DNA from: a virus | Length of the DNA stretch: 28,462 nucleotides | Strand: one strand, 5' to 3' | IMG/VR virus record: IMGVR_UViG_3300032242_002491 | Span: 1-28,462 of that record | In this document: positions 126 to 28,462 of the stretch, in pieces | Numbering within the stretch: position 1 is the stretch's first letter | Layout: each line of letters starts with the position of its first letter | Notes under the pieces: model-generated | What the model saw: only the letters and a program-made list of their open reading frames with translations | What the model was told of the DNA's origin: nothing | The model's database searches: none | Translations under genes and position numbers: made by a program

Positions 126-421
126 TGTCTTTGTATGTTCAAACTAATACATATCTAGATAATCTAAAGAGGGAATTTCCTGATCATGCCCCGCTGGTCC
201 TATTGTACATGTGGGACATCATTCGTGATGTCTTTAATGATCTTGATTCTGGCCAAGCAACCTACTCTGGATTAATCCCCGTTCCTGGAACCACATTAGA
301 AGATGTGTGGGATAAGTTTATGAAAGATACTTGGGGCGGATTTGACGTAGACGAAGGCAATGTAGTAGACTGGCTGTCCTATAATGACTTGATCCAAGAG
401 TATGAAGAGGAGGAAGAGTAA
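125..421 (+). CDS. Hypothetical acidic protein (98 aa)
   Basis: Unrecognised. The 98-residue product begins MSLYVQTNTYLDNLKREF and ends in a run of glutamates, and is strongly acidic throughout. No signal peptide, membrane span or metal-binding motif is visible. Start and stop both use TAATG overlaps with the neighbouring genes, so it is translationally coupled as the second of three small + strand genes. GGAGGT lies about 6 nt before the ATG and is a good ribosome binding site. Small acidic early proteins of phages often bind host proteins or mimic DNA, but nothing here shows that for this gene. Confidence 0.75.
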   Translation: MSLYVQTNTYLDNLKREFPDHAPLVLLYMWDIIRDVFNDLDSGQATYSGLIPVPGTTLEDVWDKFMKDTWGGFDVDEGNVVDWLSYNDLIQEYEEEEE

Positions 422-717
422 TGGCCAAGGTAGACGAAGCAGCACACAAGAAGATCTCCGCCATCTTAGGCGACACAAGGGTATCACCTGCAGTGTTGGC
501 CCGACATATGCTTAATGAGTACAGGTATGTCAATGAATCCTTTATGCAATACTTCATTAACTATATTATCTTAATGGCTAACGAGACACACGTGCCATTG
601 CATCTGGCCGAAGTGCACAAAGATGCAAAGCTTTTATACAGTTCCCTGCAGGAGTTGGGCCTAACGGGAACCATTGGCAGAGGACCATTTGACACAAATG
701 AGTTCTTGGCTGTATAA
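421..717 (+). CDS. Hypothetical small protein (98 aa)
   Basis: Unrecognised. The 98-residue product begins MAKVDEAAHKKISAILGD and looks largely helical, without cysteine motifs or membrane spans. GAGGAGGAAGAG before the ATG gives a strong ribosome binding site inside the Glu-rich tail of the preceding gene, with a TAATG overlap. It is the last gene of the + strand set. Its final 30 nt also carry a consensus promoter (TTGACA at 689, TATAAT at 713) that overlaps the stop codon, so the gene end doubles as regulatory DNA. Confidence 0.75.
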   Translation: MAKVDEAAHKKISAILGDTRVSPAVLARHMLNEYRYVNESFMQYFINYIILMANETHVPLHLAEVHKDAKLLYSSLQELGLTGTIGRGPFDTNEFLAV

Positions 718-718
718 T
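689..718 (+). promoter_or_regulatory. Consensus sigma-70/SigA promoter for sRNA candidate
   Basis: TTGACA at 689-694 and TATAAT at 713-718, separated by 18 nt; both hexamers match the housekeeping consensus exactly. The -10 box overlaps the TAA stop of the 421-717 gene. Expected transcription start is near 725. The only thing downstream before the terminator is a roughly 75-nt non-coding stretch. Confidence 0.8.
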
Positions 719-724
719 ATATAA

Positions 725-798
725 AAAGGGCGATCAGGCTATTCAGCCGAGTCCACATATCAGACCCGTGGGTGGTGACCCCACGGGTCTTTTCTTTT
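725..798 (+). ncRNA. Candidate small RNA with its own promoter and terminator
   Basis: A perfect consensus promoter ends at 718 and a strong intrinsic terminator follows at 763-800, leaving a transcript of about 74 nt. I find no ORF with a start codon and ribosome site in it. The predicted RNA has a short 5' hairpin (GGCT-ATTC-AGCC near 737-748), a single-stranded linker (GAGTCCACATATCA) and the terminator stem, which is the usual layout of a trans-acting sRNA. It lies beside the parS/repeat region. I recognise no known RNA family. The alternative is that the terminator serves only the upstream mRNA and the promoter is fortuitous. Confidence 0.6.
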
Positions 799-800
799 TT
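763..800 (+). terminator. Strong rho-independent terminator
   Basis: Perfect 10-bp stem GACCCGTGGG (763-772) / CCCACGGGTC (780-789), 7-nt loop, followed by TTTTCTTTTTT. It ends the + strand operon and the candidate sRNA before the non-coding region. Confidence 0.92.
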
Positions 801-1013
801 CATACTTCCGCATAAAGCTTTAAAATAAACATTACGAAGGGCGGGAATTTTCGCTGGACTTTTTTTATCAGACATTACGAATACATATAAATTTCACTGG
901 GATATATATAGACATTACGAAGGCATATAAAATTTGCCTGGACTTTGTGTATTTCGATCTTATAAATGTATAAAATATTAATTATAAATAAAATATGATC
1001 AAAATCACACGAT

Positions 1014-1088
1014 ATTGTCTCAAAATATGGACAATATGTATACATTTACATCAAAATTGTCTAAAATATGACCATATTTGACCATATA
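1014..1088. repeat. A/T-rich direct repeats (ATTGTCT..AAATATG and TGACCATAT)
   Basis: ATTGTCT(C)AAAATATG is present at 1014 and 1056. A 10-bp unit TGACCATATT / TGACCATATA is tandem at 1069-1088, and its inverse TGGTCA returns at 1111, so the CRP-like palindrome at 1093-1108 is bracketed by TGACCA...TGGTCA. This stretch is extremely AT-rich, consistent with a DNA-unwinding element or a multi-protein binding region. No gene is visible. Confidence 0.65.
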
Positions 1089-1092
1089 TTTA

Positions 1093-1108
1093 TGTGATTT
1101 ATATCACA
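1093..1108. promoter_or_regulatory. CRP/GlxR-type operator, perfect palindrome
   Basis: TGTGATTTATATCACA matches TGTGA-N6-TCACA exactly, and the central TA fits the actinobacterial GlxR consensus TGTGANNTANNTCACA. It is centred about 50 nt upstream of the expected start site of the + strand promoter at 1119-1148, a position where CRP-family proteins act. Binding by a host regulator is inference. Confidence 0.6.
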
Positions 1109-1118
1109 TGTGGTCATA

Positions 1119-1148
1119 TTGACATTACGATGGGCATTATGGTATGCT
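1119..1148 (+). promoter_or_regulatory. Putative + strand promoter beside parS
   Basis: TTGACA (1119-1124), 18-nt spacer, TATGCT (1143-1148) preceded by TGG (extended -10). Start would be near 1155, immediately before parS. There is no + strand gene downstream; a transcript would run antisense to the two - strand genes at 1264-1824 or serve as an origin-activating transcript. Confidence 0.45.
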
Positions 1149-1156
1149 CTATTACA

Positions 1157-1172
1157 TGTTTCACGTGAAACA
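1157..1172. promoter_or_regulatory. parS centromere site (perfect consensus)
   Basis: TGTTTCACGTGAAACA is a perfect 16-bp palindrome identical to the bacterial chromosomal parS consensus bound by ParB, which loads there as a CTP-dependent clamp. The chance of this exact 16-mer in a random 28-kb window is below 1 in 100,000. It lies in the non-coding region between convergent gene sets, next to repeats and a CRP-type operator. No parA or parB gene is present in the window. Confidence 0.88.
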
Positions 1173-1210
1173 ATATTTGAGTATGATAATTTAAATATAT
1201 CTACTGAATT

Positions 1211-1243
1211 TATTCTCCACAATACTCCACTTTACTCCACTTT
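1211..1243. repeat. 10-bp tandem repeat (ACTCCACTTT), three units
   Basis: CTCCAC recurs at 1215, 1225 and 1235 with an exact 10-bp period; the last two units are identical (CTCCACTTTA). A spacing of one helical turn places all copies on one DNA face, typical of cooperative protein binding. It lies between parS and the 3' end of the - strand gene at 1264. Confidence 0.6.
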
Positions 1244-1263
1244 ATGATATAAAAATGGCGGGA

Positions 1264-1443
1264 CTATTGGCAATCTGTGCAATAATTTTCAGCCCTAATG
1301 TGCTCTAGGGCACGATATATGGCTGTACCACAATGAGCACAACGTATCTCTATAAGGTCTGATTTAGCTAGATTGATCTTAAATGTGTGTGTATAGTATA
1401 TCTTGGTTATATACCATAGTATAAGTAGTTCTGCTAGTATCAT
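1264..1443 (-). CDS. Small zinc-ribbon protein with hydrophobic N-terminus (59 aa)
   Basis: The ATG at 1443 directly abuts the stop of the HNH gene, and the frame runs 59 codons to TAG. Residues 1-13 (MILAELLILWYIT) are hydrophobic, possibly a short membrane anchor. Residues 35-57 carry CAHCG ... CTDCQ, two CxxC knuckles 18 residues apart that would form one zinc ribbon. It is the last gene of the - strand set and faces the parS region. Function unknown; nucleic-acid or protein binding is the usual role of such ribbons. No ribosome site is obvious, so coupling to the HNH stop is likely. Confidence 0.65.
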   Translation of the reverse strand: MILAELLILWYITKIYYTHTFKINLAKSDLIEIRCAHCGTAIYRALEHIRAENYCTDCQ

Positions 1444-2551: not shown

Positions 2552-3217
2552 TTAACTAAATTCTTTAAATATATGAACTACTTCTCCAGGCTCAGGTTGA
2601 TTTACTTCTCCGTACATCATATTAAAGATAGTATTATATCTAAACTTATCTGAATCTACGGTACCATGCCTATATTTAGCATCATCACCTACATGCATAA
2701 TCATAGTGCCTGGAACTGGTTTAAACTTAATTCCAAGGTGAACATAGTCTATCTCCCCGCCCTCAAAATCGTCATTTAAATAAATAACACCACCCCATTT
2801 TACATTGTTAGGAATTCTTAATTCTCCATTACCTCTTCCTACATACTTGGGTGATGGATCTCCATCCCAATGTGGTGCCATTCCGTTTCCATTGATATCT
2901 TGACCTCTTCTTCTAACCCATATTACAGTTTGAGCATTAAAGTTTGGCCAATTTGATTTATTTTCGCCAAAGCTTGGCCATTTCATAAAATTATCGTAAA
3001 TAGATTGAATTTCTTTTTTAACTTCTTCATCTTTTACAACCATTATGTTCTCAAAGTTATGTCCATGTTCTTGATAAAACCAAGTAGTTTCATTTTTAAC
3101 TTCTTCCATGACTTTTTCAACAATATGTGGTGGATAAAAGTTTGGTATGTAAAATATACCCTCTTCTATAAATTTTGCCCCTTGACTTAAAAGCCATTCT
3201 TTATCTCTTTTATCCAT
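2552..3217 (-). CDS. 2OG-Fe(II) oxygenase (paralogue of the 3229-3963 product)
   Basis: Fe(II)/2-oxoglutarate dioxygenase of 221 residues. The metal triad is HWD (His116, Asp118) and His184, and Arg193 is placed to bind 2-oxoglutarate. The double-stranded beta-helix signature VIYLNDDFEGGEIDY lies at 144-158. The first 80 residues form a helical cap beginning MDKRDKEWLLSQGAKFIEEG. It is clearly paralogous to the upstream neighbour 11 nt away, sharing GAKFIEEGIFYI, APKYVG-type and KPVPGTMIMH blocks, so this is a tandem duplication. Substrate unknown; the fold is closest to prolyl-4-hydroxylase-like enzymes, which hydroxylate proteins. Confidence 0.88.
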   Translation of the reverse strand: MDKRDKEWLLSQGAKFIEEGIFYIPNFYPPHIVEKVMEEVKNETTWFYQEHGHNFENIMVVKDEEVKKEIQSIYDNFMKWPSFGENKSNWPNFNAQTVIWVRRRGQDINGNGMAPHWDGDPSPKYVGRGNGELRIPNNVKWGGVIYLNDDFEGGEIDYVHLGIKFKPVPGTMIMHVGDDAKYRHGTVDSDKFRYNTIFNMMYGEVNQPEPGEVVHIFKEFS

Positions 3218-3228
3218 TTTTTCTCCTT

Positions 3229-3963
3229 TTATTCTATTATTCTAAATTTATTACTATTTCCAACTGGTCTGTAAACTTGTTCGCCATCTTCTGGCAAATT
3301 TTCATCGCCGTAAGCCATGTTAAATATTAAATTATATCTAACTGCGTCTGCATCAAATGTTCCGTGTCTATATTTTGCAGAGTCTCCAATATGCATAATC
3401 ATGGTTCCTGGAACTGGCTTAAATGTTATATCAATTTCATTATAATGTATTTCTCCACCATTAAAGTTATCATTTAAATAGATAACCCCGCCCCATTTTA
3501 CTCTATTAATAATTTGAATTTGACCATCGCCTTTACCGACGTATTTTGGTGCTGGATCGCCGTCCCAATGAGGTTCTAGTGCATTTCCTTCGTTGCCAGG
3601 CCCTTTAGGCATGTTTGGGCCTTTACGGCAAACCCAAGGCACTTGTTGAGTTTGCATCCTAATCTCGCCACCGCCAAATTTAAATGGCTTTAAATTAGAA
3701 TAATTTTCTCCAAAGCTTGGCCATTTAGAAAATTTATCATAGATTTCATTCATTTTATTAACTGTTTCTTGATTTTGTAACACTTTAATATTTACAAAAC
3801 GATTTCCATTTTCTTCATGAACCCAAGTAGTTTCGGATTCAGCTTCTTCTAAAACTTTTGATACAAGATCTGGTGGGAAAAAATTAGAAATATAGAAGAT
3901 ACCCTCTTCTATAAATTTTGCCCCGTATTCGCTTATAAGCCAATCTTTGTCTACTTGATTCAT
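3229..3963 (-). CDS. 2OG-Fe(II) oxygenase (paralogue of the 2552-3217 product)
   Basis: Fe(II)/2-oxoglutarate dioxygenase of 244 residues with HWD (His132, Asp134), His200 and Arg209, plus VIYLNDNFNGGEIHY. Compared with its downstream paralogue it has an insert near residues 96-130 rich in Gly and Pro (MPKGPGNEG) before the HxD motif, which probably alters substrate entry. I prefer the ATG at 3963: GGGGGA sits 5 nt upstream, and the N-terminus then aligns with the paralogue. An ATG at 3975 is possible. An extended -10 promoter lies just upstream at 3989. The family hydroxylates proteins, nucleic acids or small molecules using O2, consuming 2-oxoglutarate. Confidence 0.88.
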   Translation of the reverse strand: MNQVDKDWLISEYGAKFIEEGIFYISNFFPPDLVSKVLEEAESETTWVHEENGNRFVNIKVLQNQETVNKMNEIYDKFSKWPSFGENYSNLKPFKFGGGEIRMQTQQVPWVCRKGPNMPKGPGNEGNALEPHWDGDPAPKYVGKGDGQIQIINRVKWGGVIYLNDNFNGGEIHYNEIDITFKPVPGTMIMHIGDSAKYRHGTFDADAVRYNLIFNMAYGDENLPEDGEQVYRPVGNSNKFRIIE

Positions 3964-3988
3964 TATTTCCCCCATGCTATATACTACA

Positions 3989-8361: not shown

Positions 8362-9183
8362 CTATTCCTTTGAAAAAAATGGCTTAGATTTTTGCATTGG
8401 ATCTAAAGATCCTCCTAGCGGTACAACGTATCTGTGATATTGACCAGAATCAAACTCTTTTTTAATTCTTTCTTTTTCCATTTCTTCCCAAACTTCTTTT
8501 CCATATTTATTTTGATTTTCAAACCATTCTGGAGATCCTGGATAATCTTCAAACCACCAAGTGCGTATAATGTATCTTTCGCCTCTTGTAACAGCTTTAA
8601 CGCCATGAAAATAAGGTGCTCCTGAAGGAAAAACTATTGCATCCCCAGCTTTTGGCTTATACTCTATAACTTTGCCAGTTGACTCATCCAAAAATGAAAT
8701 CTCTCCACCATCAAAATCATCACTTAAATAAATAGTGCAAGTTATTGCAAATTTGTTGCCTGGAGAATCTTTATCAAATTCATGAGTGTCTGTATGGTAT
8801 TCAAGTGCAAGATGATCTGGACTTTCTGAAACCCAATATTTACAAACTGATAAACCGCTGTGTTGCCATTTTGGTAAATCTATTTTGTTTTCTTCAATAA
8901 AATCTTTAGTAGTTTGAAAAAAAACATCTGCAATTTTATGCATAAATTTTTTTTGTTTTAATGCATGAGGAATATGATCAAATTCATTTGAAAGAACATT
9001 ATGTTCATCTGGCATCAAAGCACTCATAATTGAACCTAGTTTGTACCAAGGTCCCCACTCATTAAAGTAGTACTTACCACCAACTTCGTGTTCTGATTCT
9101 TTTAAAAATTCAACAAACTCTTTATATTCTGGAACCATGTCATGATAAACAGCGACCTTAGAGTACAAAATTTCTTTATTCAT
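8362..9183 (-). CDS. 2OG-Fe(II) oxygenase (prolyl hydroxylase-like)
   Basis: A 273-residue dioxygenase with H-x-D (His130, Asp132), distal His193 and 2-oxoglutarate-binding Arg203. The jelly-roll strand TIYLSDDFDGGEISF lies at 150-164 and the KPKAGDAIVFPSG turn before the distal histidine is typical of the P4Hc group. It has a long helical N-terminal region and an 80-residue C-terminal tail rich in charged and aromatic residues. Substrate unknown. The gene is separated by 2 nt from the flavin monooxygenase and overlaps the small gene upstream by 8 nt. Confidence 0.88.
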   Translation of the reverse strand: MNKEILYSKVAVYHDMVPEYKEFVEFLKESEHEVGGKYYFNEWGPWYKLGSIMSALMPDEHNVLSNEFDHIPHALKQKKFMHKIADVFFQTTKDFIEENKIDLPKWQHSGLSVCKYWVSESPDHLALEYHTDTHEFDKDSPGNKFAITCTIYLSDDFDGGEISFLDESTGKVIEYKPKAGDAIVFPSGAPYFHGVKAVTRGERYIIRTWWFEDYPGSPEWFENQNKYGKEVWEEMEKERIKKEFDSGQYHRYVVPLGGSLDPMQKSKPFFSKE

Positions 9184-16094: not shown

Positions 16095-16338
16095 CAGTGT
16101 ATTTCATCCCTTCTATTTCACATGGTGTTTCATAAGATTGAATTAAATTTCTAACAAGTAGCAAATATTCCATTATTTGCATTCTTTGAGATTCATTATA
16201 TTCCATAATGTTGCTCTCATACACTGTTAAAGCAAGATAGTTAGGTCTTGCTCTAATATCTAGGATAAGATTTTTTACGGGAGGTTTTAATCCCCGTATT
16301 TTCTTAGCCATTTCAACCGTGTACTGTATTTTTTCCAT
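16060..16338 (-). CDS. Hypothetical protein (92 aa)
   Basis: Begins MEKIQYTVEMAKKIRGLKPP and continues LILDIRARPNYLALTVYESNI, then a helical stretch MQIMEYLLLVRNLIQSYETP and a basic C-terminus. Overlaps WhiB by 26 nt and the next gene by 35 nt. No recognised domain. Confidence 0.7.
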   Translation of the reverse strand: MEKIQYTVEMAKKIRGLKPPVKNLILDIRARPNYLALTVYESNIMEYNESQRMQIMEYLLLVRNLIQSYETPCEIEGMKYTDEQARSRRRNA

Positions 16339-16639
16339 GAAGCTTTTTTAATTTCTTCCAAATTTCTGGTTCTTTATGAGAGTTATGTTGTTTATCTGGT
16401 CTTCCAAGATCCATGTAAACACCACCCCATACTCCCTTTTCTTTGTTTTCTATGCCCTCTGCATGACAAATTTTAATTACTGGACAATGTATACAAACTT
16501 GATCTGTTTGTTTTGCAACTTCTTTATCATTTTCATAATCATCATAAAACCAATTAATTGACATATTTTTACATGCAGCAAGATGATACCATTTTAAATC
16601 TTGTTCATCAAGTCCTATTTGATTAAGTAAGTTTGGCAT
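16313..16639 (-). CDS. WhiB-family iron-sulfur transcription regulator
   Basis: A 108-residue WhiB-like protein, a family restricted to actinobacteria and their phages. The four cluster-binding cysteines are Cys23, Cys49, Cys52 and Cys58 (C-x25-C-x2-C-x5-C), followed by the hallmark GVWGG turn (69-73) and a basic C-terminal region KKLKKLHGKNTVHG that would contact DNA. WhiB proteins hold a redox-sensitive 4Fe-4S cluster and bind sigma factor region 4. Phage copies such as mycobacteriophage TM4 WhiB interfere with host regulation. It fits the redox theme of the window and identifies the host phylum. Confidence 0.93.
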   Translation of the reverse strand: MPNLLNQIGLDEQDLKWYHLAACKNMSINWFYDDYENDKEVAKQTDQVCIHCPVIKICHAEGIENKEKGVWGGVYMDLGRPDKQHNSHKEPEIWKKLKKLHGKNTVHG

Positions 16640-17218: not shown

Positions 17219-17579
17219 TTATGTGCCTATAAGGCACTCCAAAAGATCTTAAAAGGTCTAAACACGAGCTATTTCTTACTGATTCTCCAAAAACTAATGC
17301 AAAATCTGGTAAAGACTCTATCATTGTTACATCTGAAAAAGAAGATTTATCTCTAACTATTTCTTCTTTAATCTTATATCCATTTTGACGAATTAGTTTT
17401 TCTACTTTACCAATATATTCTGTTACCATATTTTCAGCACCTCTTTGACCTTTATGAACAAATAAGTATTCTTTATCTTCAGGATAAAAATGCTTTCGAT
17501 CATCAATTAAAACAGTAATTTGTCTCATAAATTCGTTGTAATCTTCATAGTCTTTTGATCCAAAAACTAATACCTTCAT
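17214..17579 (-). CDS. SLOG/DUF2493-like nucleotide-binding protein
   Basis: A 121-residue Rossmann-like protein. It opens MKVLVFGSKDYEDYNEFMRQ, the DUF2493/YspA pattern (V-x-G-S-R-x-x), has FVHKGQRGAENMV (the 'H-G-x-x-x-G-A-D' loop) and ends FALVFGESVRNSSCLDLLRS plus a short final strand, as in the SLOG superfamily that binds nucleotide derivatives or ADP-ribose ligands. Typical phage/actinobacterial genes of this kind are uncharacterised; some SLOG proteins are sensors in defence systems. Overlaps the upstream oxygenase by 4 nt. Confidence 0.75.
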   Translation of the reverse strand: MKVLVFGSKDYEDYNEFMRQITVLIDDRKHFYPEDKEYLFVHKGQRGAENMVTEYIGKVEKLIRQNGYKIKEEIVRDKSSFSDVTMIESLPDFALVFGESVRNSSCLDLLRSFGVPYRHIK

Positions 17580-18097
17580 TTTTTCCTTTCTATAAAACCC
17601 AGCGAAAAACCGAGTCTTGGAGTAACAGGTATAACTTCATGCGTCATACCGCCTGGGCAATAAACAACATCATTTCTTTCTAAAATTTTTTTAAAAACTA
17701 CATTTCCATCATCATCAGAAATTATCCATTCAGATTTGCCATGAGCTTGCCAAAACAAAACTTCTTCTGAATCTTTATGTTCACCGCCAAAATTGCCTTC
17801 TTCTGTTGTTAAACTTGCATATAACATGCATTCTGCAATCTCAAATGGGTCAAAATAAGTATATATGTGATCCATTATTTCTTTAAGACGTGGAAGCCTA
17901 TCAACATGCCACAGCCTAAAAGCAAATCCAGAGTAAACCTTTTTACCATGTGGTTTTTTATTTTTAACATCTTCATTAAGCATTACAAATATATCGTTCC
18001 AATTTATTTCTGGCTCTTCTATTTTAAAATAAGTGGGAATTTTATTTTCTACAGCATCATGAAATTCTTCGCTATCTAAAAGAACGTGAAAATTCAT
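17576..18097 (-). CDS. Cupin/JmjC-like Fe(II) oxygenase
   Basis: A 173-residue cupin-fold protein. H-x-D (His107, Asp109) in GGEHKDSEEVLFWQ and a distal histidine (His153) in CPGGMTHEV, with Arg161 following, match the JmjC/cupin-like arrangement; QAHGKSEWIISDDDGN forms the sheet turn between them and NDVVYCPGGMTHEVIP is the typical cupin motif 2. It may hydroxylate protein or RNA side chains. AGAAAGGT precedes the ATG at 18097. It follows a terminator, and I see no clear dedicated promoter. Confidence 0.78.
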   Translation of the reverse strand: MNFHVLLDSEEFHDAVENKIPTYFKIEEPEINWNDIFVMLNEDVKNKKPHGKKVYSGFAFRLWHVDRLPRLKEIMDHIYTYFDPFEIAECMLYASLTTEEGNFGGEHKDSEEVLFWQAHGKSEWIISDDDGNVVFKKILERNDVVYCPGGMTHEVIPVTPRLGFSLGFIERKK

Positions 18098-20409: not shown

Positions 20410-20484
20410 TGGTAGCCCTACAGGGAATTGAACCCTGTTCTGCAAGATGAAAGCCTGCAATCCTAACCAATAGACGATAGGGCC
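20410..20484 (-). tRNA. tRNA-Glu (UUC)
   Basis: Full cloverleaf: acceptor GGCCCTA/TAGGGCT, anticodon stem GCAGG/CTTGC with loop CTTTCAT (anticodon TTC), T arm CAGGG TTCAATT CCCTG. It is the only tRNA here with an encoded CCA. Reads GAA/GAG. Confidence 0.95.
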
Positions 20485-20487
20485 TTA

Positions 20488-20562
20488 GTGCCTCCAGTTG
20501 GGCTCGAACCAACGACCCGCAGATTAAAAGTCTGCTGCTCTACCATCTGAGCTATAGAAGCA
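20488..20562 (-). tRNA. tRNA-Lys (UUU)
   Basis: Acceptor TGCTTCT/GGAGGCA, anticodon stem CAGAC...with loop CTTTTAA (anticodon TTT), T arm GTTGG TTCGAGC CCAAC. No encoded CCA. Three bases separate it from tRNA-Glu. Reads AAA/AAG. Confidence 0.94.
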
Positions 20563-20593
20563 TGAACAGTTTTAGTCTTGTTCAGGACTATTG

Positions 20594-21106
20594 TTAAGCA
20601 GAAAGTATTTTACTTAAAGCATTAATTGTTGCTGCAATTCTTCCGATATCACGCAACTGCTCTACTGTATATCCCTCTTGCTTTAGTGTTTCATAATGCG
20701 CCTTAACGCAAAAGTGACACTTACCAATAATTGATGAAGCTAATGAATATGCTTCAAACTTGGCTTTTGTTGTACCGCCGTGTGATGCAATAGCATTCAT
20801 TCTCAACTGTGCTGGTAAACCAGACAAAGCAGAGTCATCCGCCATTTCAACGTAAGGATACCATACATTGTTTTGAGCCATCAAGGCACCAGCCGTTAAA
20901 GCAGCATTTTTTTCTACTTCATCAGTTGCACCTGAAGCAATAAATGCTAAAAGTTTTCCATTTCCTGTTGCAAAAGCAGCAGCAATAGCTAAGTAAGTAA
21001 CTTGCTCTGGGTCAATCGTAGAACGATTAACAACAGCATCTAAGTTTAACTTAATATCTTTTGCGTATTCTGGCAAAGAATCTTTTAGTTGATCAACCCA
21101 AGACAT
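20594..21106 (-). CDS. ahpD: Alkyl hydroperoxidase AhpD-like
   Basis: A 170-residue AhpD/CMD-family protein. GKCHFCVKAHYETL holds the C-x2-C-x3-H active site (Cys130, Cys133, His137), with Glu118 in the preceding helix. The start MSWVDQLKDSLPEYAKDIKL matches actinobacterial AhpD. In actinobacteria AhpD reduces AhpC, using dihydrolipoamide-type donors. The gene overlaps ahpC (TAATG), the same order as in actinobacterial chromosomes, so the pair was probably taken from a host as a unit. Confidence 0.93.
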   Translation of the reverse strand: MSWVDQLKDSLPEYAKDIKLNLDAVVNRSTIDPEQVTYLAIAAAFATGNGKLLAFIASGATDEVEKNAALTAGALMAQNNVWYPYVEMADDSALSGLPAQLRMNAIASHGGTTKAKFEAYSLASSIIGKCHFCVKAHYETLKQEGYTVEQLRDIGRIAATINALSKILSA

Positions 21107-21642
21107 TAAAGAGTTTCCCCTCCAAGTGGGCGGTTACAGGCACAAAGTTCTCCAGTTTGAAGTGCATCTAAAACACGAAGTGCTTCATCAGCATTACGGC
21201 CAACATCTAAATTGTTTACTGTGATGTGTTGGATCACGTTATCTGGATCAACAATAAATGTTGCACGTAATGTAACTCCCTGTGAAGTAATAATTCCTAG
21301 ATCTGATGAAAGCTCTCGGGCTGAATCAGCAAATGACCATGAATTTGTTTTTGCAAGATCACCATGGTTATTACGCCATGCAATTTTACAAAATTCATTG
21401 TCAACTGAGCCAGTCATGAGAACGGCATCACGATCATTAAAATCATTAACTAACTTATCATATGCAACAATTTCTGTTGGACATACAAATGTAAAATCCT
21501 TTGGATAAAATGCAATAATCTTCCACTTTCCAGCAAAAGAATCTTGATTTAAGTTCTCAAAGGAAGAGTCATCATAAGCTAATGCCCCTGGCTTTACACC
21601 AACAACATTAAAATTACCGAGCTTGTCTCCTACAGTTTTCAT
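21106..21642 (-). CDS. ahpC: Peroxiredoxin AhpC
   Basis: A 178-residue 2-Cys peroxiredoxin. Peroxidatic Cys54 lies in FYPKDFTFVCPTEI, and Cys167/Cys169 near the C-terminus (GELCACNRP) include the resolving cysteines, the three-cysteine arrangement seen in actinobacterial AhpC. It reduces H2O2, organic peroxides and peroxynitrite. With AhpD downstream, thioredoxin and Dps it forms a peroxide-handling set. The ATG is 33 nt after the 3' end of tRNA-Leu; a GATACT-TT-AGTATC dyad lies between them at 21661-21674. Confidence 0.95.
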   Translation of the reverse strand: MKTVGDKLGNFNVVGVKPGALAYDDSSFENLNQDSFAGKWKIIAFYPKDFTFVCPTEIVAYDKLVNDFNDRDAVLMTGSVDNEFCKIAWRNNHGDLAKTNSWSFADSARELSSDLGIITSQGVTLRATFIVDPDNVIQHITVNNLDVGRNADEALRVLDALQTGELCACNRPLGGETL

Positions 21643-21675
21643 ATTTCTCCTTATATAAGTGATACTTTAGTATCG

Positions 21676-21748
21676 TACCCCAAGACAGATTCGAACTGTC
21701 GCTGTATGGATTTTAAGTCCACTATCTCTACCGCTGGATTACTGGGGC
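21676..21748 (-). tRNA. tRNA-Leu (UAA), short variable loop
   Basis: Cloverleaf: acceptor GCCCCAG/TTGGGGT with A73, anticodon stem GTGGA/TCCAT with loop CTTAAAA (anticodon TAA), T arm GACAG TTCGAAT CTGTC. Variable region is only 5 nt, whereas bacterial tRNA-Leu normally carries a long extra arm. The D stem is only three pairs. No CCA encoded. Reads UUA by anticodon. Confidence 0.85.
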
Positions 21749-21749
21749 G

Positions 21750-21822
21750 TGACCTCTGTAGGATTTGAACCTACGACCAACAGGGTAGAAACCTGTGACT
21801 CTATCCACTGAGCTAAGAGGCC
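21750..21822 (-). tRNA. tRNA-Arg (UCU)
   Basis: Acceptor GGCCTCT/AGAGGTC, anticodon stem ACAGG/CCTGT with loop TTTCTAC (anticodon TCT), T arm GTAGG TTCAAAT CCTAC. One base from tRNA-Leu. Reads AGA/AGG. Confidence 0.94.
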
Positions 21823-21827
21823 AAATA

Positions 21828-21853
21828 AACAGGCCCTAATCTTAGGGCCTGTT
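21828..21853 (-). terminator. Hairpin after dps, directly before tRNA-Arg
   Basis: AACAGGCCCTAA / TTAGGGCCTGTT, 12-bp perfect arms, followed on the - strand by TTTATTT. It looks like an intrinsic terminator for dps, but only 5 nt separate it from tRNA-Arg, with no promoter between, so some read-through or RNA processing must feed the tRNAs. Confidence 0.75.
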
Positions 21854-21877
21854 ATTAACTATGATGTTATTATACTA

Positions 21878-22321
21878 CTACTTAAGAGTTGATGTCAATT
21901 GCCATTGCCAAAATTTATGTTGTTCAATTCTTCCAGCAATAAAATTACAAATTCCTTGTTCATCTAACTCATTTGATATATCGTAAGTTCTTCTTAACAT
22001 TGCAAGAACCACTGTGTTTGTTTGAACTAATTCCTGAAGCATAGTTTTTGCATCAAGATTTTCTGAATCATTAATTTCTAAAGCACTGCCTTCAAGCCAT
22101 GACTTTAAACCAAAAGGTGCTTTTGCACCAAGTTTGCGAATATTCTCTGCAATTGGATCAATAGACTCATATACATCTGAATAAATTTTTAATAAAAACT
22201 TATGATATTGTGGAAAATTTGAACCTTCAACATTCCAATGATACCCATGAGATTGAACATACATTTTCACAACCATTGATTTTAAAGTTTTTAAAGCATC
22301 AATTAAATCTTTTTCTTCCAT
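21878..22321 (-). CDS. dps: Dps-family DNA-binding/ferritin-like protein
   Basis: A 147-residue Dps. HGYHWNVEGSNFPQYHKFLL and SIDPIAENIRKLG contain the ferroxidase residues (His28, His40, Asp55, Glu59) that sit at the dimer interface. Dodecameric Dps oxidises Fe(II) with H2O2 and stores the iron, protecting DNA. The short N-terminus lacks a long lysine tail, so DNA binding may be weak. It fits beside ahpC/ahpD and many Fe(II) oxygenases. Start ATG overlaps the upstream membrane gene (TAATG). Confidence 0.93.
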   Translation of the reverse strand: MEEKDLIDALKTLKSMVVKMYVQSHGYHWNVEGSNFPQYHKFLLKIYSDVYESIDPIAENIRKLGAKAPFGLKSWLEGSALEINDSENLDAKTMLQELVQTNTVVLAMLRRTYDISNELDEQGICNFIAGRIEQHKFWQWQLTSTLK

Positions 22322-22569
22322 TATAAATTCCTTATCAATTTCTCATCTGGTGTATTTGGATCATTTTCTACATATAAAGCTTTTATTGTTTTTTTATCTT
22401 CAACTGTTTGGCTCCATTCTGCAAAACCAATTATAAAAATAATTGAAGGAACAATCAAATCAACTGCTGAAGAAGGTAAATATTTATGAAGCCATATTAT
22501 TATAGCAGAAATATAACCTGTAAGTCTAGCTGGGTATTTTTTAGTATACGTAAACAACTTTTTTAACAT
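22321..22569 (-). CDS. Small membrane protein (82 aa)
   Basis: LTGYISAIIIWLHKYLPSSA and VDLIVPSIIFIIGFAEWSQT give two membrane spans after a basic N-terminus (MLKKLFTYTKKYPAR), with a charged C-terminal tail. Topology suits a small phage holin-like or accessory membrane protein, but no family is recognised. TATAAT lies at 22582-22577, 7 nt before the ATG, so the mRNA is probably leaderless. Overlaps dps by TAATG. Confidence 0.75.
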   Translation of the reverse strand: MLKKLFTYTKKYPARLTGYISAIIIWLHKYLPSSAVDLIVPSIIFIIGFAEWSQTVEDKKTIKALYVENDPNTPDEKLIRNL

Positions 22570-22584
22570 ATAACTAATTATACA

Positions 22585-22722
22585 TTATTTTGAGCTTTTT
22601 GCCTTATGCCCTCTAAAACCTGTCTTTTTTGGGTTCATAGAACCAGGCTTTTTTTGACCTGGAGCAACTGCTGCTTGACGTTGTTTTAAGCCTGCTAAAA
22701 TTTTATCGTGATGTTTTCCCAT
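22585..22722 (-). CDS. Small basic protein (45 aa)
   Basis: MGKHHDKILAGLKQRQAAVA then PGQKKPGSMNPKKTGFRGHK and AKSSK: 45 residues, very basic, Gly/Pro-containing. It starts in a TAATG overlap with the oxygenase gene. Composition suggests nucleic-acid or virion-interior binding. Short but well supported by the coupled start. Confidence 0.65.
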   Translation of the reverse strand: MGKHHDKILAGLKQRQAAVAPGQKKPGSMNPKKTGFRGHKAKSSK

Positions 22723-23288
22723 TACTTTTCTCTATTTCCTTCCCACTCTGTTTCTTTAAGCAAATTCATTGATGGATAATCATATCTTGCTGTATTTTTT
22801 GTTGTTAACATGTTGAACATTCCAAACCTTGTCCCACCCTCCACTGTTAATACTGCATGATCAAAATCTGGATCGTTTGCTTTAAAAAACATTGCGTCAC
22901 CCATTTTTGGAATATATGTGTAATCTATGTTTGGAAAGCTTAATCCCCCACCTGAAAAATTATCATTAAGATATATTAAACAAGTATAATCATAATACTC
23001 TTCAACTTCATTAAAATAGCCATCTGTATGTAAAAACATAGAATAGCCTGGAAGATATTTCATAGTAGCAGTTTCCGCTAAATAAAGATCTTCTTTAAAA
23101 AGGTCCCTTGCTTTATCAACAAAGCGTAAAGAAATATTTTTATAATTTTCATCCATTTCTGAGTTCCAAAGTTGATATTTTAATTTTTTAGGTCCAGTAA
23201 AGGCTTTATCTATATTTTTTTCTAAAAATTCAATTTGAAGACTACATTCTTCTTCTGATAAAAAGTTTTCTATTACTATTGGTTTCAT
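22722..23288 (-). CDS. 2OG-Fe(II) oxygenase
   Basis: A 188-residue prolyl-4-hydroxylase-like dioxygenase: His87 and Asp89 (FLHTDGYF), distal His144 (DFDHAV) and Arg154 (GGTRFGMF). CLIYLNDNFSGGGLSFPNID is the typical core, with GGG in place of the usual GGE. It starts MKPIVIENFLSEEECSLQIE, the common 'V-x-ENFLSxEEC' opening shared with the 24180-24815 product. Substrate unknown. ATG overlaps the upstream stop (ATGA). Confidence 0.88.
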   Translation of the reverse strand: MKPIVIENFLSEEECSLQIEFLEKNIDKAFTGPKKLKYQLWNSEMDENYKNISLRFVDKARDLFKEDLYLAETATMKYLPGYSMFLHTDGYFNEVEEYYDYTCLIYLNDNFSGGGLSFPNIDYTYIPKMGDAMFFKANDPDFDHAVLTVEGGTRFGMFNMLTTKNTARYDYPSMNLLKETEWEGNREK

Positions 23289-24172
23289 GAATTGCTTCTT
23301 CCTTTTCTGTCTGATTTATTGCCATATCCTACCGATGTCTTACCATCATTTTGCGGTGGAGTGTTATATGTTGAATTATATCTCATATCTTGCATTTGTG
23401 AACCCATAACTGGTGCAAAAGAACCATTCCAAAAACTTAAAGAACCTATCCCTTCTTGTTCGTCTTGTTTTGCTTGATCACCTTTAACTACTGGCTCATT
23501 TATTGATATTGCTTTCATAGCTTCTTCTGCATGTTCTTTAGTTGTATAACAACCAATTACTTGTCCTGTTCCCGCTTTTGTAATTGCATAACCACCTAAG
23601 CAGTCTGGAACATTGTATTCTAATTTAAATCCTACGCCACCAGAAATTCTTCCAGCACCTGCGGATTCTTTTTCAATTTTATTTTCTTTATTTACAATAG
23701 CACGAGACCATGCATATCCTGCATCTCCGCCCCATGCATACCACATTACTTTACCGTGTGATGGCTTATCCCAATCTTTTCCTTTTTTATCAACTTCGTG
23801 ACGAGAAAAGAAAGAGTACATTCTTTTAACTGTATCAAGTGACATTGATCTTCCAGCAATGATATCGCTTGCACGTCCCCAACCAACAGGTGTGCCTGCT
23901 CCATTTGCTTTACCTTCTTCTTTCCATTTTAAAGCTTTACGAGCTGCTGCTTTCATTCCTGCATTTGGTTGATATCCATCAGCTTTTTTTACGGGAATAC
24001 AATTAGGAACTGTCTTACCATCTTTTTCTTTAGTCCCAGCATATTCGTAACCGTCCCAACATGGGCCTTGACCTTTATCAATACAATATGCACACTTTTC
24101 TGTATCTGAAACATAATGGTGATCATTACCTAAATCATCGCATCCACAAGTCATACATTTGGTCGTTGTCAT
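23285..24172 (-). CDS. Phage protein with Cys-rich head and FWNGSFAPV motif
   Basis: A 295-residue protein. The N-terminus has CMTCGC...CAYC (zinc-type knuckles), then GPCWDGYEYAGTKEKDGKTV with a following NCIP, a short domain seen in many phage structural or accessory proteins. Residues about 70-160 (AARKALKWKEEGKANGAGTP, GRASDIIAGRSMSLDTVKRM, YAWGGDAGYAWSRAIV) match a domain found beside phage prohead protease/capsid genes. A second Cys segment (DCLGGYAITK...GCYTTKEHAEEAMKA) and SLSFWNGSFAPVMG follow, with a disordered tail. Likely virion- or head-associated, though not proven. Leaderless start. Confidence 0.7.
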   Translation of the reverse strand: MTTTKCMTCGCDDLGNDHHYVSDTEKCAYCIDKGQGPCWDGYEYAGTKEKDGKTVPNCIPVKKADGYQPNAGMKAAARKALKWKEEGKANGAGTPVGWGRASDIIAGRSMSLDTVKRMYSFFSRHEVDKKGKDWDKPSHGKVMWYAWGGDAGYAWSRAIVNKENKIEKESAGAGRISGGVGFKLEYNVPDCLGGYAITKAGTGQVIGCYTTKEHAEEAMKAISINEPVVKGDQAKQDEQEGIGSLSFWNGSFAPVMGSQMQDMRYNSTYNTPPQNDGKTSVGYGNKSDRKGRSNS

Positions 24173-24178
24173 GCTTAT

Positions 24179-24187
24179 ATTATACCA
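24179..24187 (-). promoter_or_regulatory. Extended -10, leaderless promoter
   Basis: TGG-TATAAT on the - strand; the ATG at 24172 is 6 nt past the -10 box. It overlaps the last codons of the upstream oxygenase. Confidence 0.65.
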
Positions 24188-24815
24188 CTTTAGATATTAT
24201 TTCCATTGAATCAAACCCTTTAAACTCATATTCTTTTTGAGGAGTTGTCCATAAAATAATTGAATCTCTATCGCCTTTTTCAACAGTTTTCCCGCCATGC
24301 CATTTACCTGCTGGGAATAAGATAAAATCGCCCTTTTTAGGCTTATATATAAGCCCACCCATTTCATCTTCATATAAAGGCCAATCTTCTTTAGTTTCAA
24401 ATTTATCTAAAAACACTATTTCGCCACCAGCATAATTATCATTTAAATAAAGAACTCCGCTATAGTTTAATTCACAAAAATAATGATGAATATCTTGATG
24501 AAGCCTTAACTTTATGTCTTTTCTTAATCTTGCAATTGAAAAACCATAAAAATAAGATTTATCGTCGTCAAAGTTTTCTTTTATTTTTTGAATAAATATG
24601 CTTTTATATTTGTTCAAAATAGATTCAATATCTTTAAATAAATAAGGTGCCTTTTGATCTGGCGATAATGCTCTATATGCTGCACCTTTTTTAAAAGATA
24701 TACCTAGCCTTCTTTTAAATTTTTCTTTATTATGCATGTTTTTATTTATATAATCAATTAAAAAATTACAATCTTCTTCTGATACAAGATTGTTGTATAT
24801 AATAACATCTTTCAT
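24180..24815 (-). CDS. 2OG-Fe(II) oxygenase downstream of tRNA-Thr
   Basis: A 211-residue dioxygenase: His106 and Asp108 (RLHQDIHHYF), distal His173 (GKWHGG), Arg183. GVLYLNDNYAGGEIVFLDKF is the core strand pair, KPKKGDFILFPAG the typical turn. The opening MKDVIIYNNLVSEEDCNFLI matches the 22722-23288 product. The ATG lies 4 nt after the 3' end of tRNA-Thr with no ribosome site of its own, so tRNA processing would leave a nearly leaderless mRNA. Substrate unknown. Confidence 0.88.
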   Translation of the reverse strand: MKDVIIYNNLVSEEDCNFLIDYINKNMHNKEKFKRRLGISFKKGAAYRALSPDQKAPYLFKDIESILNKYKSIFIQKIKENFDDDKSYFYGFSIARLRKDIKLRLHQDIHHYFCELNYSGVLYLNDNYAGGEIVFLDKFETKEDWPLYEDEMGGLIYKPKKGDFILFPAGKWHGGKTVEKGDRDSIILWTTPQKEYEFKGFDSMEIISKVV

Positions 24816-24819
24816 TTTG

Positions 24820-24891
24820 AGCCCCGTTTCAGGATTGAACTGAAGACCTTCCGCTTACAAGGCGGATGCTCTACCACTGAGCTAACAAGGC
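24820..24891 (-). tRNA. tRNA-Thr (UGU)
   Basis: Acceptor GCCTTGT/ACGGGGC, anticodon stem TCCGC/GCGGA with loop CTTGTAA (anticodon TGT), T arm TTCAG TTCAATC CTGAA, discriminator T. It sits between the RNA candidate (3 nt upstream) and an oxygenase ATG (4 nt downstream). Reads ACA. Confidence 0.94.
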
Positions 24892-24894
24892 CTA

Positions 24895-25003
24895 GGACTA
24901 TACACGGATTCCAGCACTAATGGCTGCCCTGTCTCACCACAACTCTTACATCGGGTGTACATCATATGTAACTATAACATCCCAAGGTGTGCCGTGTATA
25001 GCC
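24895..25003 (-). ncRNA. Candidate structured RNA joined to tRNA-Thr
   Basis: The first and last bases of this 109-nt stretch pair: GGCTATACACGG (from 25003) with CCGTGTATAG-TCC (ending 24895), 12 pairs with one bulge. Inside are two arms: one with TTGGG/CCCGA and a TACAT/ATGTA hairpin, and one with CAGC-CATTAGT-GCTG. There is no ORF. A TATAAT at 25016-25011 places the start site at 25004-25003, exactly where the stem begins. The 3' end is 3 nt from tRNA-Thr, so RNase P would release it. I do not recognise the family. Confidence 0.62.
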
Positions 25004-25010
25004 TATTTAT

Positions 25011-25016
25011 ATTATA
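25011..25016 (-). promoter_or_regulatory. -10 box before the RNA candidate
   Basis: TATAAT on the - strand, in TAAGGTATAAT overlapping the Hsp20 stop codon region; predicted start at 25003-25004. The -35 region is weak. Confidence 0.55.
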
Positions 25017-25018
25017 CC

Positions 25019-25516
25019 TTACTTGATCTTTATTTGCTTTGGCTTAGCTTCTTCTGGAATTTCCCGTTCAATTTTAACAGTTAGCATTCCATTATCAAGT
25101 GAAGCAGATTTAACATTCATATACTCACCAAGAGTAAAGGTTTGTGTAAAATTACGACCAGCAATTCCTTTATGAAGGTAATCTGCTTTGTCTTCATTTT
25201 TACGTTCGCTCTTAATAACTAACGTATCTTTATCTACTGTTATATCAATATCTTCACGATCATATCCTGCAACTGCAAGTTCAACAACGTAGTTGTCCTC
25301 ATCAATTTTCTTTACATTATATGGAGGGAAGGTAGAAGTTGTTACCTTGTTAGTATTCCATCTTGCAAATTGATCATGAAATCCTAAAAAAAATGGATCA
25401 TTAAACCATGCTTCAATTGTTGCAAATGGATTATATTGTGTTGGTGTTGTTGCTTTCTTTTGTTTATTCATATGGACTTCATATTCGTCCCACCCATAGG
25501 GTTTTAGATGTGTCAT
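25019..25516 (-). CDS. Small heat-shock protein (Hsp20/alpha-crystallin)
   Basis: A 165-residue Hsp20. After a 50-residue N-terminal arm the alpha-crystallin domain runs from about 62: PYNVKKIDEDNYVVELAVAG, DREDIDITVDKDTLVIKSER, YLHKGIAGRNFTQTFTLGEY, ending SASLDNGMLTVKIEREIPEE with the conserved A-x-L-x-N-G-x-L motif; the C-terminal KPKQIKIK contains the I-x-I anchor. It prevents aggregation of unfolding proteins and is ATP-independent. Phage Hsp20 genes are widespread in cyano- and actinophages. Ribosome site AAGGAG, in a foldable leader. Confidence 0.95.
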   Translation of the reverse strand: MTHLKPYGWDEYEVHMNKQKKATTPTQYNPFATIEAWFNDPFFLGFHDQFARWNTNKVTTSTFPPYNVKKIDEDNYVVELAVAGYDREDIDITVDKDTLVIKSERKNEDKADYLHKGIAGRNFTQTFTLGEYMNVKSASLDNGMLTVKIEREIPEEAKPKQIKIK

Positions 25517-25588
25517 TTTACTTAGCTCCTTTTCAGCAAGTTAGTTGTATTCAGGACCCATAAGGCATCCTGTTGTATTATTATATCA
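25517..25588 (-). promoter_or_regulatory. Hsp20 promoter and structured leader (possible RNA thermometer)
   Basis: TGA-TATAAT (25585-25580) gives a start near 25573 and a leader of about 57 nt. Hairpin 1: CAGGA...TCCTG enclosing CC-TTAT-GG. Hairpin 2: ACTTGCT / AGC(T)AAGT, 7 pairs with one bulge; its loop and stem contain the AAGGAG ribosome site. Partial masking of the site before a heat-shock gene is the layout of bacterial RNA thermometers. Confidence 0.5.
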
Positions 25589-25600
25589 TAATTTTAAATT

Positions 25601-26221
25601 TTATTTAGAATCTATAAATATAGGGCCAACGTGAATTTTTCCTGTGTCTGGATTTCTCCACTCCATATTGCAATCATAAGCAAAGTTGGCATACAAATAT
25701 CTTTTTCCACTAATTACTGGATTGACACCATGTGCATATGGTGGCAAAGCACTATGTATTATTAAATCCCCTGGGTTTGGCTTTATTATTAAGTCAAGGT
25801 CTGGATAATATAATTCTCCACCCTCCCAGCTTCCAAAATAAAGTAAAATTCCCCATTCAACGTGACAACATGTTTCAAAATCATTATAATACTCATCAGA
25901 TAAATCTGGATCGCCACGATCAATATGTACATCCATGCCTTGACCTACTGGGGTTCTTGTAAATATTTTTACTGGTGGAACCATGTATTCTGGAGCAATA
26001 ATTTTGTTAATTTTATTTCCCAATTCATAAATTTCTTTATGATTTTGACTTAATTTTCCATTCCAAAATGGGTTAGGGTTGCTATCATGCATGCCCCATT
26101 CTTCTTCAGTAATGCTATCTGCAATATTAAAATAAAATTCTGTTTCTTCTTTGCTTAAAAAATTTTCCCAAATAAGTATTCCTTCTCTTATTTTTTTAAA
26201 ATTTTTATTTTCAGTAAACAT
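25601..26221 (-). CDS. 2OG-Fe(II) oxygenase
   Basis: A 206-residue dioxygenase: His99 and Asp101 (DVHIDRGD), distal His164 (PYAHGV), and SGKRYLYANF with Arg174 for 2-oxoglutarate. WGILLYFGSWEGGELYYPDL and KPNPGDLIIHSA are core strands. N-terminal helix reads EGILIWENFLSKEETEFYFN, again the 'ENFLSxEE' opening. GGGGGAAA precedes the ATG at 26221; TGG-TATACT lies upstream. Substrate unknown. Confidence 0.88.
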   Translation of the reverse strand: MFTENKNFKKIREGILIWENFLSKEETEFYFNIADSITEEEWGMHDSNPNPFWNGKLSQNHKEIYELGNKINKIIAPEYMVPPVKIFTRTPVGQGMDVHIDRGDPDLSDEYYNDFETCCHVEWGILLYFGSWEGGELYYPDLDLIIKPNPGDLIIHSALPPYAHGVNPVISGKRYLYANFAYDCNMEWRNPDTGKIHVGPIFIDSK

Positions 26222-26262
26222 TAATGTTTCCCCCTATTTACTATAAAAGTATACCATATTTG

Positions 26263-26336
26263 TGGAGCAGGTCAGACTTGAACTGACGATTACCGAATTA
26301 TGAGTTCGGGGCTTTGACCAACTAAGCTACTGCTCC
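26263..26336 (-). tRNA. tRNA with CAU anticodon (Met or Ile2)
   Basis: Acceptor GGAGCAG/CTGCTCC with A73, anticodon stem CCGAA/TTCGG with loop CTCATAA (anticodon CAT), T arm GTCAG TTCAAGT CTGAC. The anticodon alone cannot distinguish elongator Met from lysidine-modified Ile2. The adjacent Ile(UAU) favours Met. Confidence 0.9.
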
Positions 26337-26337
26337 G

Positions 26338-26412
26338 TAGGGGTACTTGGATTTGAACCAAGACTCGTTTGCGTATAAGACAAATGCTTTAACCAGATTA
26401 AGCTATACCCCC
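26338..26412 (-). tRNA. tRNA-Ile (UAU)
   Basis: Acceptor GGGGGTA/TACCCCT with A73, anticodon stem TTTGT/GCAAA with loop CTTATAC (anticodon TAT), T arm CTTGG TTCAAAT CCAAG. One base from the CAU tRNA. Reads AUA directly, without lysidine, which is unusual in bacteria. Confidence 0.92.
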
Positions 26413-26417
26413 AAACT

Positions 26418-26660: not shown

Positions 26661-26695
26661 AATTAAACTCTTTCTAGTAGTTAGTTAATAATTTG

Positions 26696-26768
26696 CTGGG
26701 GTGGTAGGGATCGAACCTACGACATTCCGATTAACAGTCGAACGCTCTGCCAGCTGAGCTACACCCCA
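26696..26768 (-). tRNA. tRNA-Asn (GUU)
   Basis: Acceptor TGGGGTG/CACCCCA with G73, anticodon stem TTCGA/TCGGA with loop CTGTTAA (anticodon GTT), T arm GTAGG TTCGATC CCTAC. Reads AAC/AAU. Confidence 0.95.
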
Positions 26769-27070: not shown

Positions 27071-27099
27071 AGTCTATCAGAGTATTCTCATGCTGTCAA
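27071..27099 (-). promoter_or_regulatory. Leaderless promoter inside the terminase gene end
   Basis: TTGACA (27099-27094), 17-nt spacer, TAGACT (27076-27071) preceded by TGA; ATG at 27064 lies 6 nt beyond. Confidence 0.78.
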
Positions 27100-28462
27100 T
27101 AGCAAACTCTGCATCATCTGGATCTTCATCTATTCCCATAAATTCCCGCAAATTATCTGGCATTTGTGGTTTATCTGGAAGCTTAATTGTTTTATTAGAC
27201 TGAAGTCTAACATCTGATTCTTGACGCAATTTTTCTATTTCTGTTTGAAAAACAGTGCCATATGTATACAACTCAACTTCTTTATTTAAATCTCTAGGGG
27301 TTAGAGCAGTAGCATTATATATTGCTCCGCAAACAGCGTCAGATAGGTCTTTAGAGCCTTTTCTAGGGTGGTCTACCTTATCCTTCATGATTCTAAGCTG
27401 AAGAAGCTCATCAATAAGCAATTGAATGTTTGGGCCGTAAACTCTTTCTTCTGTTATACATAAGGACATATCCTCGTAATGCTTTTTAGCAACAGAAAGT
27501 AACTCAGTATTTATACCATATGCTTTTAATTGCATCATTAAATCATGAGAGTTCCACCTATCAAATGTTACCATTTTAAGATTAAATCCACGTTCTTTAA
27601 GGCTAATTATATAGTCTTTAACTTCTTCAAAGTTTACAGATTTTTCTTTTGTTGGAGTCCAATATCTTACTGCATCTACAATAATTTTTGGTGCTGCTTC
27701 TTTATAATTATCACCAATTTTCATAGTTACCCAGCCATCTACATGAGATAACGCTACTGCACAATGGTCATGTTTTTGTGCTAAATCTACATGTATAAAA
27801 TATTGAGTGTCTTCTCTAGGCTTAAAATAGTCATCAAATCTTCCATCTTTATCTACACCCAGTCTTGGGTTTGAAAATGCTTTTTCAATTAATGGCCTTG
27901 ATCTAAAAAAGGCATCTACTGCATCAGGTGGCATGCAGGCAAAACGAGATAAGGCATCAACTGGATCTGTATAAAAATCAATAGTAAAATCTTCAATTTT
28001 TCTTGTTGGATTAATATCCCATGTTGGTCTTCTAAGTGCATAGACTCTGGGAACCTTATAAGATACTATATGATCTTCTTCCCATTCAAGCTCAAATTCA
28101 TTCCCCGCCGTTCCATCTGGAAGATCTGGATCTACCTTAAAAGAATGATGTCTAATAACTACTTCTTTTTCAGCTACAACTTCTTCATATCTTTGTTGAA
28201 TATAATCCATTTTAAAGCGTGGGAAAGAAAGCAAAACAAGTTTTCCAAAATCTGGAAAACGAGAATTTACAGATGCACGATACATCTTGTAAATAGCAGA
28301 AGCAGTTTTTGCTTGTTCATTACCGCTTGTTGATTCAAGATCAAAACCAGATATCTCATCAAGAATAACAACTAAAACGTTATATCCTTCCCAAGATTCT
28401 CTTTGAGAGTGACCTGAGTGAACTGTTATTTCATGATCAAATTCAATACTATTTGCTTTTGA
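27077..28462 (-). CDS. terL: Terminase large subunit (partial, N-terminus beyond window)
   Basis: 461 residues are visible, cut by the right edge. The first part carries the end of the ATPase domain: VLVVILDEISGFD is the Walker B strand with the catalytic Glu, and the motif III region follows. The RNase H-like nuclease domain begins at FIHVDLAQKHDHCAVALSHV (catalytic Asp), with MVTFDRWNSHDLMMQL and DLSDAVCGAIYNA giving the second and third acidic positions. Terminase cuts and pumps phage DNA into proheads. The DNA upstream (right of the window) should hold the packaging/head genes. Confidence 0.93.
   Translation of the reverse strand, partial: SKANSIEFDHEITVHSGHSQRESWEGYNVLVVILDEISGFDLESTSGNEQAKTASAIYKMYRASVNSRFPDFGKLVLLSFPRFKMDYIQQRYEEVVAEKEVVIRHHSFKVDPDLPDGTAGNEFELEWEEDHIVSYKVPRVYALRRPTWDINPTRKIEDFTIDFYTDPVDALSRFACMPPDAVDAFFRSRPLIEKAFSNPRLGVDKDGRFDDYFKPREDTQYFIHVDLAQKHDHCAVALSHVDGWVTMKIGDNYKEAAPKIIVDAVRYWTPTKEKSVNFEEVKDYIISLKERGFNLKMVTFDRWNSHDLMMQLKAYGINTELLSVAKKHYEDMSLCITEERVYGPNIQLLIDELLQLRIMKDKVDHPRKGSKDLSDAVCGAIYNATALTPRDLNKEVELYTYGTVFQTEIEKLRQESDVRLQSNKTIKLPDKPQMPDNLREFMGIDEDPDDAEFAIDSMRIL

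Follow-up and report, generated by a model that had tools for sequence, protein, structure and literature searches.

Why should a phage genome carry a perfect copy of the bacterial chromosomal centromere, parS, whose function is the loading of ParB clamps, on a stretch of sequence in which neither parA nor parB is recognised? The locus in question is found in IMG/VR record IMGVR_UViG_3300032242_002491, the entire 28,462 bases of which were analysed (henceforth the window) and which represents a fragment of a larger phage genome. Its terminase large subunit shares 61% amino acid identity with that of Streptomyces phage Francob, and up to 96% with those of other IMG/VR contigs. Such Streptomyces phages have genomes of ~128-133 kb, and several of those matched by the terminase are filed under Stanwilliamsviridae. 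A gene coding for a WhiB-type regulator furthermore points to an actinobacterial host for this freshwater phage. WhiB was used in place of AhpC, which as a host marker gave proteobacterial matches only; the nearest homologues of the AhpC-like protein are, among the matches listed, proteobacterial. The window also holds several 2OG-Fe(II) oxygenase-like genes (one of which was tested), as well as AhpC-like, ferritin-like, Hsp20-like and subtilase genes (2552-3975, 8362-9183, 17576-18097 and 22722-26221), and eight tRNA genes on the minus strand (20410-26768).

A first-pass annotation of this DNA had pointed to an exact chromosomal parS consensus, located in a long non-coding region amid repeats and regulatory sites, in a window without parA or parB, and each of these observations is borne out (Table 1). 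The palindrome TGTTTCACGTGAAACA is the sole match at three or fewer mismatches in the 28,462 bases, where 4.9e-6 copies would be expected by chance under a third-order Markov model and 1.1e-5 from base composition. It has the 16-bp palindromic consensus of a chromosomal-type parS and is conserved in sequence in non-coding DNA, and by this identity it should represent a target for ParB. The ParB_N domain (PF02195, a search that misses ParB-like proteins outside this family) was not found in the window, in 29 related records or in the parS-bearing set, the IMG/VR records being fragments. The ParA-type AAA_31 domain was likewise not found in the window, nor in nine of the parS-bearing records, and both domains were recovered from the control genomes. 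For the window, the absence of parA and parB holds for a 28,462-base fragment, the related cultured phages being ~130 kb in size.

Table 1. Features of the window discussed in the text, with their coordinates.
Feature	Position	Strand	Remarks
parS palindrome TGTTTCACGTGAAACA, perfect, chromosomal-type (site A)	1157..1172		Exact match to 16-bp consensus
Non-coding hub between convergent genes	718..1443		Rightward genes 125-717, leftward genes from 1824 down
Sigma-70-type promoter TTGACATTACGATGGGCATTATGGTATGCT, conserved	1119..1148	+	TTGACA, 18 nt, TATGCT preceded by TG
CATTACGA repeat, copy 1	829..837	+	Repeat family in hub
GACATTACGA repeat, copy 2	871..880	+	Repeat family in hub
GACATTACGA repeat, copy 3	911..920	+	Repeat family in hub
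CRP/GlxR-type palindrome TGTGATTTATATCACA	1093..1108		Similar sites in hubs of L221, L223, L226, L231
CTCCAC repeats, 10-bp period	1215..1244	+	Retained in most relatives' hubs
Intrinsic terminator, end of rightward operon	762..790	+	Within hub
98-aa protein, function unassigned	421..717	+	Hub flank, synteny anchor; homologues in relatives
WhiB-type regulator	16313..16639	-	PF02467, E 1e-10
Terminase large subunit	27077..28285	-	Puts phage near Stanwilliamsviridae actinophages

The hub that harbors site A is a candidate replication origin or control region, and also marks the point where convergent genes switch strand in G027, G105, G101, G114 and G108. Four CATTACGA repeats are located in the hub, the fourth of which falls within the promoter. 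The GC skew flips at the hub, but as gene orientation flips there too, it was set aside as uninformative on an origin. Three to four perfect DnaA boxes (TTATCCACA) are found within ~1 kb of the hub promoter in L216, L222, L224, L229, L230 and L233, and no box perfect to this sequence occurs in the window's own hub. It may be that the hub acts as a replication origin, and that the host proteins docked there vary from phage to phage. At 1225-1244 the window contains two copies of CTCCACTTTA, complementary to TAAAGTGGAG at 107-116 in the ribosome-binding region of the gene at 125-421, and the hub promoter might give rise to a small regulatory RNA.

Relatives were identified through a pattern search for the hub promoter, which recovered elements of the TTGACATTACGATGGGCATTATGGTATGCT type in 19 IMG/VR contigs, while the 98-aa protein as a query gave one IMG/VR relative only. 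Homologues of this protein, at 35-64% amino acid identity, are encoded in G008, G018, G027, G103, G106, G108 and G114. A 15-bp core of the palindrome, GTTTCACGTGAAACA, is retained at site A, after the promoter, in L218/G103 and L223/G108, where the flanks have diverged and where the 98-aa neighbour shares only 35% (G103) and 61% (G108) identity with that of the window despite the shared core. Site A lacks parS in L212, L214/G027, L226/G018 and the remaining hubs besides L218 and L223. The hubs of G114 and G106 are likewise without parS, yet a search of the whole records revealed exactly one exact copy elsewhere in each, in a common non-coding context, ACATTTTGACCAAATNTGG-TTTCACGTGAAACA, which represents a second place for parS (site B). 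A scan for this context identified a further exact parS in L399 (G118), a contig (L394) that is identical to G114 in the site-B stretch, and a variant, GTTTCACATGAAAC, in L395 and L400. In G103, whose parS is located at site A, a stretch resembling site B is devoid of it. There is thus one parS copy per assessable record, at A or B, in contigs that are partial and may hold further copies elsewhere. A CRP/GlxR-type palindrome was also observed in G103, TGTGATGCAGATCACA, near 17,700 in the site-B-like region without parS, in addition to TGTGATTTATATCACA in the window hub.

Other relatives carry the site at neither place. No parS within one mismatch is present in the large relatives G027 (108 kb), G018 (92 kb) and G101 (101 kb), nor in ten cultured Streptomyces relatives and Rhodococcus phage Weasels2, and G105 (112 kb) has only a one-mismatch parS-like site inside a gene. 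The one-mismatch sites of G030, G105/G110 and G046 fall within genes or small ORFs, and were dismissed as coincidental. The large and cultured relatives without parS indicate that the site is dispensable in the family of the window phage and, on the sequences compared, parS is gained and lost in this family rather than universal. A small tree of the 98-aa protein is poorly resolved and yields no single parS clade. Conservation in close relatives, which had been set as a test of the site, is obtained in part: the core persists at the same spot in G103 and G108, and is missing there in L212, L214/G027 and L226/G018.

The position of site A raises the possibility that host ParB bound at parS represses, roadblocks or insulates the adjacent hub promoter. 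The window parS starts 9 bases past the second hexamer of this conserved promoter, at approximately +2 of the inferred transcription start, and in L350/G108 and L353/G103 the corresponding spacing amounts to 10 nt. The same promoter is preceded by a CRP-type site, the parS copies of the cultured Gordonia phages described below are located within or beside a leftward gene block at the right end of the genome, and in Pseudomonas ParB represses genes adjacent to parS (PMC7022226). An operator, too, would be expected to take the form of a lone site beside a promoter, which counts against a centromere taken from the host. However, the hub promoter is retained in many relatives without parS, other relatives have parS at another locus, and host parS sites are mostly intergenic too (9/10 in C. 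glutamicum; PMC7083940), so that the setting is not diagnostic. A single copy that may occupy one of two places is more in line with a position-independent centromere than with a promoter-specific operator. Transcriptional control is unlikely overall, and conceivable for site A.

The palindrome is not restricted to this family. The exact 16-mer is found at no fewer than 120 IMG/VR loci, whereas two control palindromes gave 0 and 33; the parS count is a lower bound rather than a share of all viral contigs, and some of the contigs may carry host sequence. Among the matches listed, 64 of 146 parS copies are non-coding, that is, wholly outside ORFs of ≥80 aa, where 16.1 would be expected from ORF density, while the control palindrome is non-coding in 0/33 copies (3.1 expected; Fisher P 9e-8 for parS versus control). 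parS is thus over-represented in viral contigs and biased to non-coding DNA. The majority of 18 sampled parS loci have genes for phage terminases or for tail, connector or replication proteins. A ParB_N match is present in 4/50 viral parS records, three of these being above the cut-off. Two related phage contigs (L017 and L044) each carry five exact parS near a terminase gene, and no ParB_N. A functionless chance occurrence could account for the many relatives without parS, and the overall genome scan covered very much sequence. It is nonetheless exceedingly improbable, given that the identical 15-mer recurs at this position in two diverged relatives, and given the database-wide excess and non-coding bias.

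Cultured representatives of such phages exist. Gordonia phages Kampe, Gibbles and RobinSparkles (Orchidvirus) and Lidong (Woesvirus) each contain two exact parS, lying either intergenically or in non-coding sequence at the right genome end, and the Kampe parS stretches are identical in Orchid and PatrickStar. Neither ParB_N nor ParA is encoded in the complete genomes of Kampe, Gibbles and RobinSparkles, and Lidong has no ParB_N. Three of the four distinct Gordonia phage copies form the centre of perfect 30-36-bp palindromes with unrelated arms (L436 at 4771 and 5192; L422 at 18481), and two of these, when folded, gave strong hairpins (z -5.9 and -4.7), as might be expected if the palindrome acted as an RNA hairpin or terminator rather than as a ParB site. 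Against this, the hub transcript of the window folds no better than shuffled sequences (z -0.75), and it is the core sequence, not pairing alone, that is kept across sites A and B and in unrelated phages, making an RNA element highly improbable.

The Gordonia phages also bear on the life cycle in which parS may act. Woes belongs to Cluster CS, which is listed without integrase, parABS and repressor genes, while Cluster CX, which includes Kampe, falls by exclusion among the clusters with temperate features (PMC5559632). The first-pass annotation had envisaged, as one of three options beside genome positioning and ParB titration, an extrachromosomal prophage, or phage-plasmid, segregated by means of host ParB. 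Phages with their own parABS are maintained as extrachromosomal prophages (PMC7157519), and a parS of the host type might stand in for such phage genes. The proposal gains no direct support here: no ParA, integrase, repressor or RepA was recognised in the 28-kb fragment that the window represents, the parS systems known from phages rely on repeat sites of their own (PMC7157519), and Lidong has two sites even though its Woesvirus cluster is reported without lysogeny genes (PMC5559632). We regard a phage-plasmid segregated by host ParAB as decidedly improbable.

The latter observation would fit a sabotage of the host, in which many parS-bearing phage copies draw ParB off the host origin and disturb segregation and division. 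Such titration would follow from the identity of parS together with a high copy number in lytic growth, and extra parS in the genomic island SGI1 destabilise an IncC plasmid in a dose-dependent manner (PMC10954446). A genome aimed at titration would, however, be expected to carry arrays, such as the five sites of the unrelated phages L017 and L044, and one copy per genome is few by comparison; C. glutamicum, for its part, copes with losing nine of its ten parS (PMC7083940). Titration as the main function of the site is likewise unlikely.

We favour, with moderate confidence, the reading that the 16-mer is a stolen host centromere, and would load host ParB onto the DNA of the phage as a means of handling its genome. 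As parS loads ParB clamps, as a single site suffices in C. glutamicum and as SGI1 provides a precedent, recruitment of host ParB is the best reading of the locus. In C. glutamicum, where one parS is enough, ParB spreads up to 16 kb on each side and SMC is recruited at an ectopic parS (PMC7083940). The host ParB, the same palindrome being used in characterised actinobacteria, would bind the phage parS, form closed CTP clamps and then slide across neighbouring kilobases of phage DNA. Host ParA, SMC or polar anchors could act on the DNA thus coated, whereby phage genomes, whether incoming or replicating, may be positioned, compacted or held separate. When phage copies are numerous, these sites would also pull ParB from the host origin. 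This binding and everything downstream of it is what we infer from the features of the locus. The relatives that lack parS count against the reading. The earlier proposal of a phage-borne site for host ParB accordingly stands in part, in that the core is kept in two relatives, other relatives have one copy at a second spot and ParB_N was not found, while some relatives are without the site.

The occurrence of a lone parS in these relatives and in unrelated phages suggests that phages commonly recruit the host segregation machinery. In its broadest form, the proposal is that a lone host-type parS constitutes a widespread viral strategy, whereby many unrelated phages, probably including lytic ones, possess between one and five copies, lack ParAB and draw on host ParB, along with ParA and SMC, for viral DNA handling in lytic growth; we judge the case for it to be evenly balanced. 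No report of a lone host-type parS in phages was found in the open-access literature, subscription papers and preprints being outside the scope of the search. If host ParB does load on phage genomes, the phages would take direct control of the machinery for chromosome segregation and condensin loading and would need no genes of their own to do so, host ParB would be a phage host factor, and the strategy would suggest how some phage genomes come to be positioned or compacted in the cell. Cultured Gordonia phages such as Kampe, Orchid and Lidong make the recruitment of host ParB testable now.

Several known systems resemble the one proposed here. Cluster A parABS phages such as RedRock (PMC7157519) are, like the window phage, actinobacterial phages with centromere sites. 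They, however, encode ParA and ParB, carry arrays of short direct repeats and form extrachromosomal prophages, whereas the window phage has a single host-type 16-bp palindrome, and neither ParA nor ParB_N was found in it. The AlpC system of the C. glutamicum prophage CGP3 (PMC4446434) likewise concerns the subcellular placement of phage DNA in an actinobacterium, through a phage-encoded actin-like protein and not host ParB. A likeness in gene content exists to SGI1, which stabilises itself with a stolen plasmid parS (PMC10954446); there, as in the phage sequence analysed, parS is present on a mobile element and parAB is absent. SGI1 uses the ParB of another replicon for its own stability and displaces that replicon, a likeness that we propose for the phage. 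The effect has been demonstrated experimentally for SGI1, while its phage counterpart is predicted from sequence. Furthermore, SGI1 mimics the IncC-type parS of its helper plasmid, while the phage site is the chromosomal parS consensus and its carriers are phages, some of them probably lytic. The chromosomal parS of M. smegmatis (GTTTCACGTGAAAC; PMC7022226) and C. glutamicum share the same palindrome core and are mostly intergenic. These lie near the host oriC, whereas the phage parS is carried on the phage genome itself, in one or two copies.
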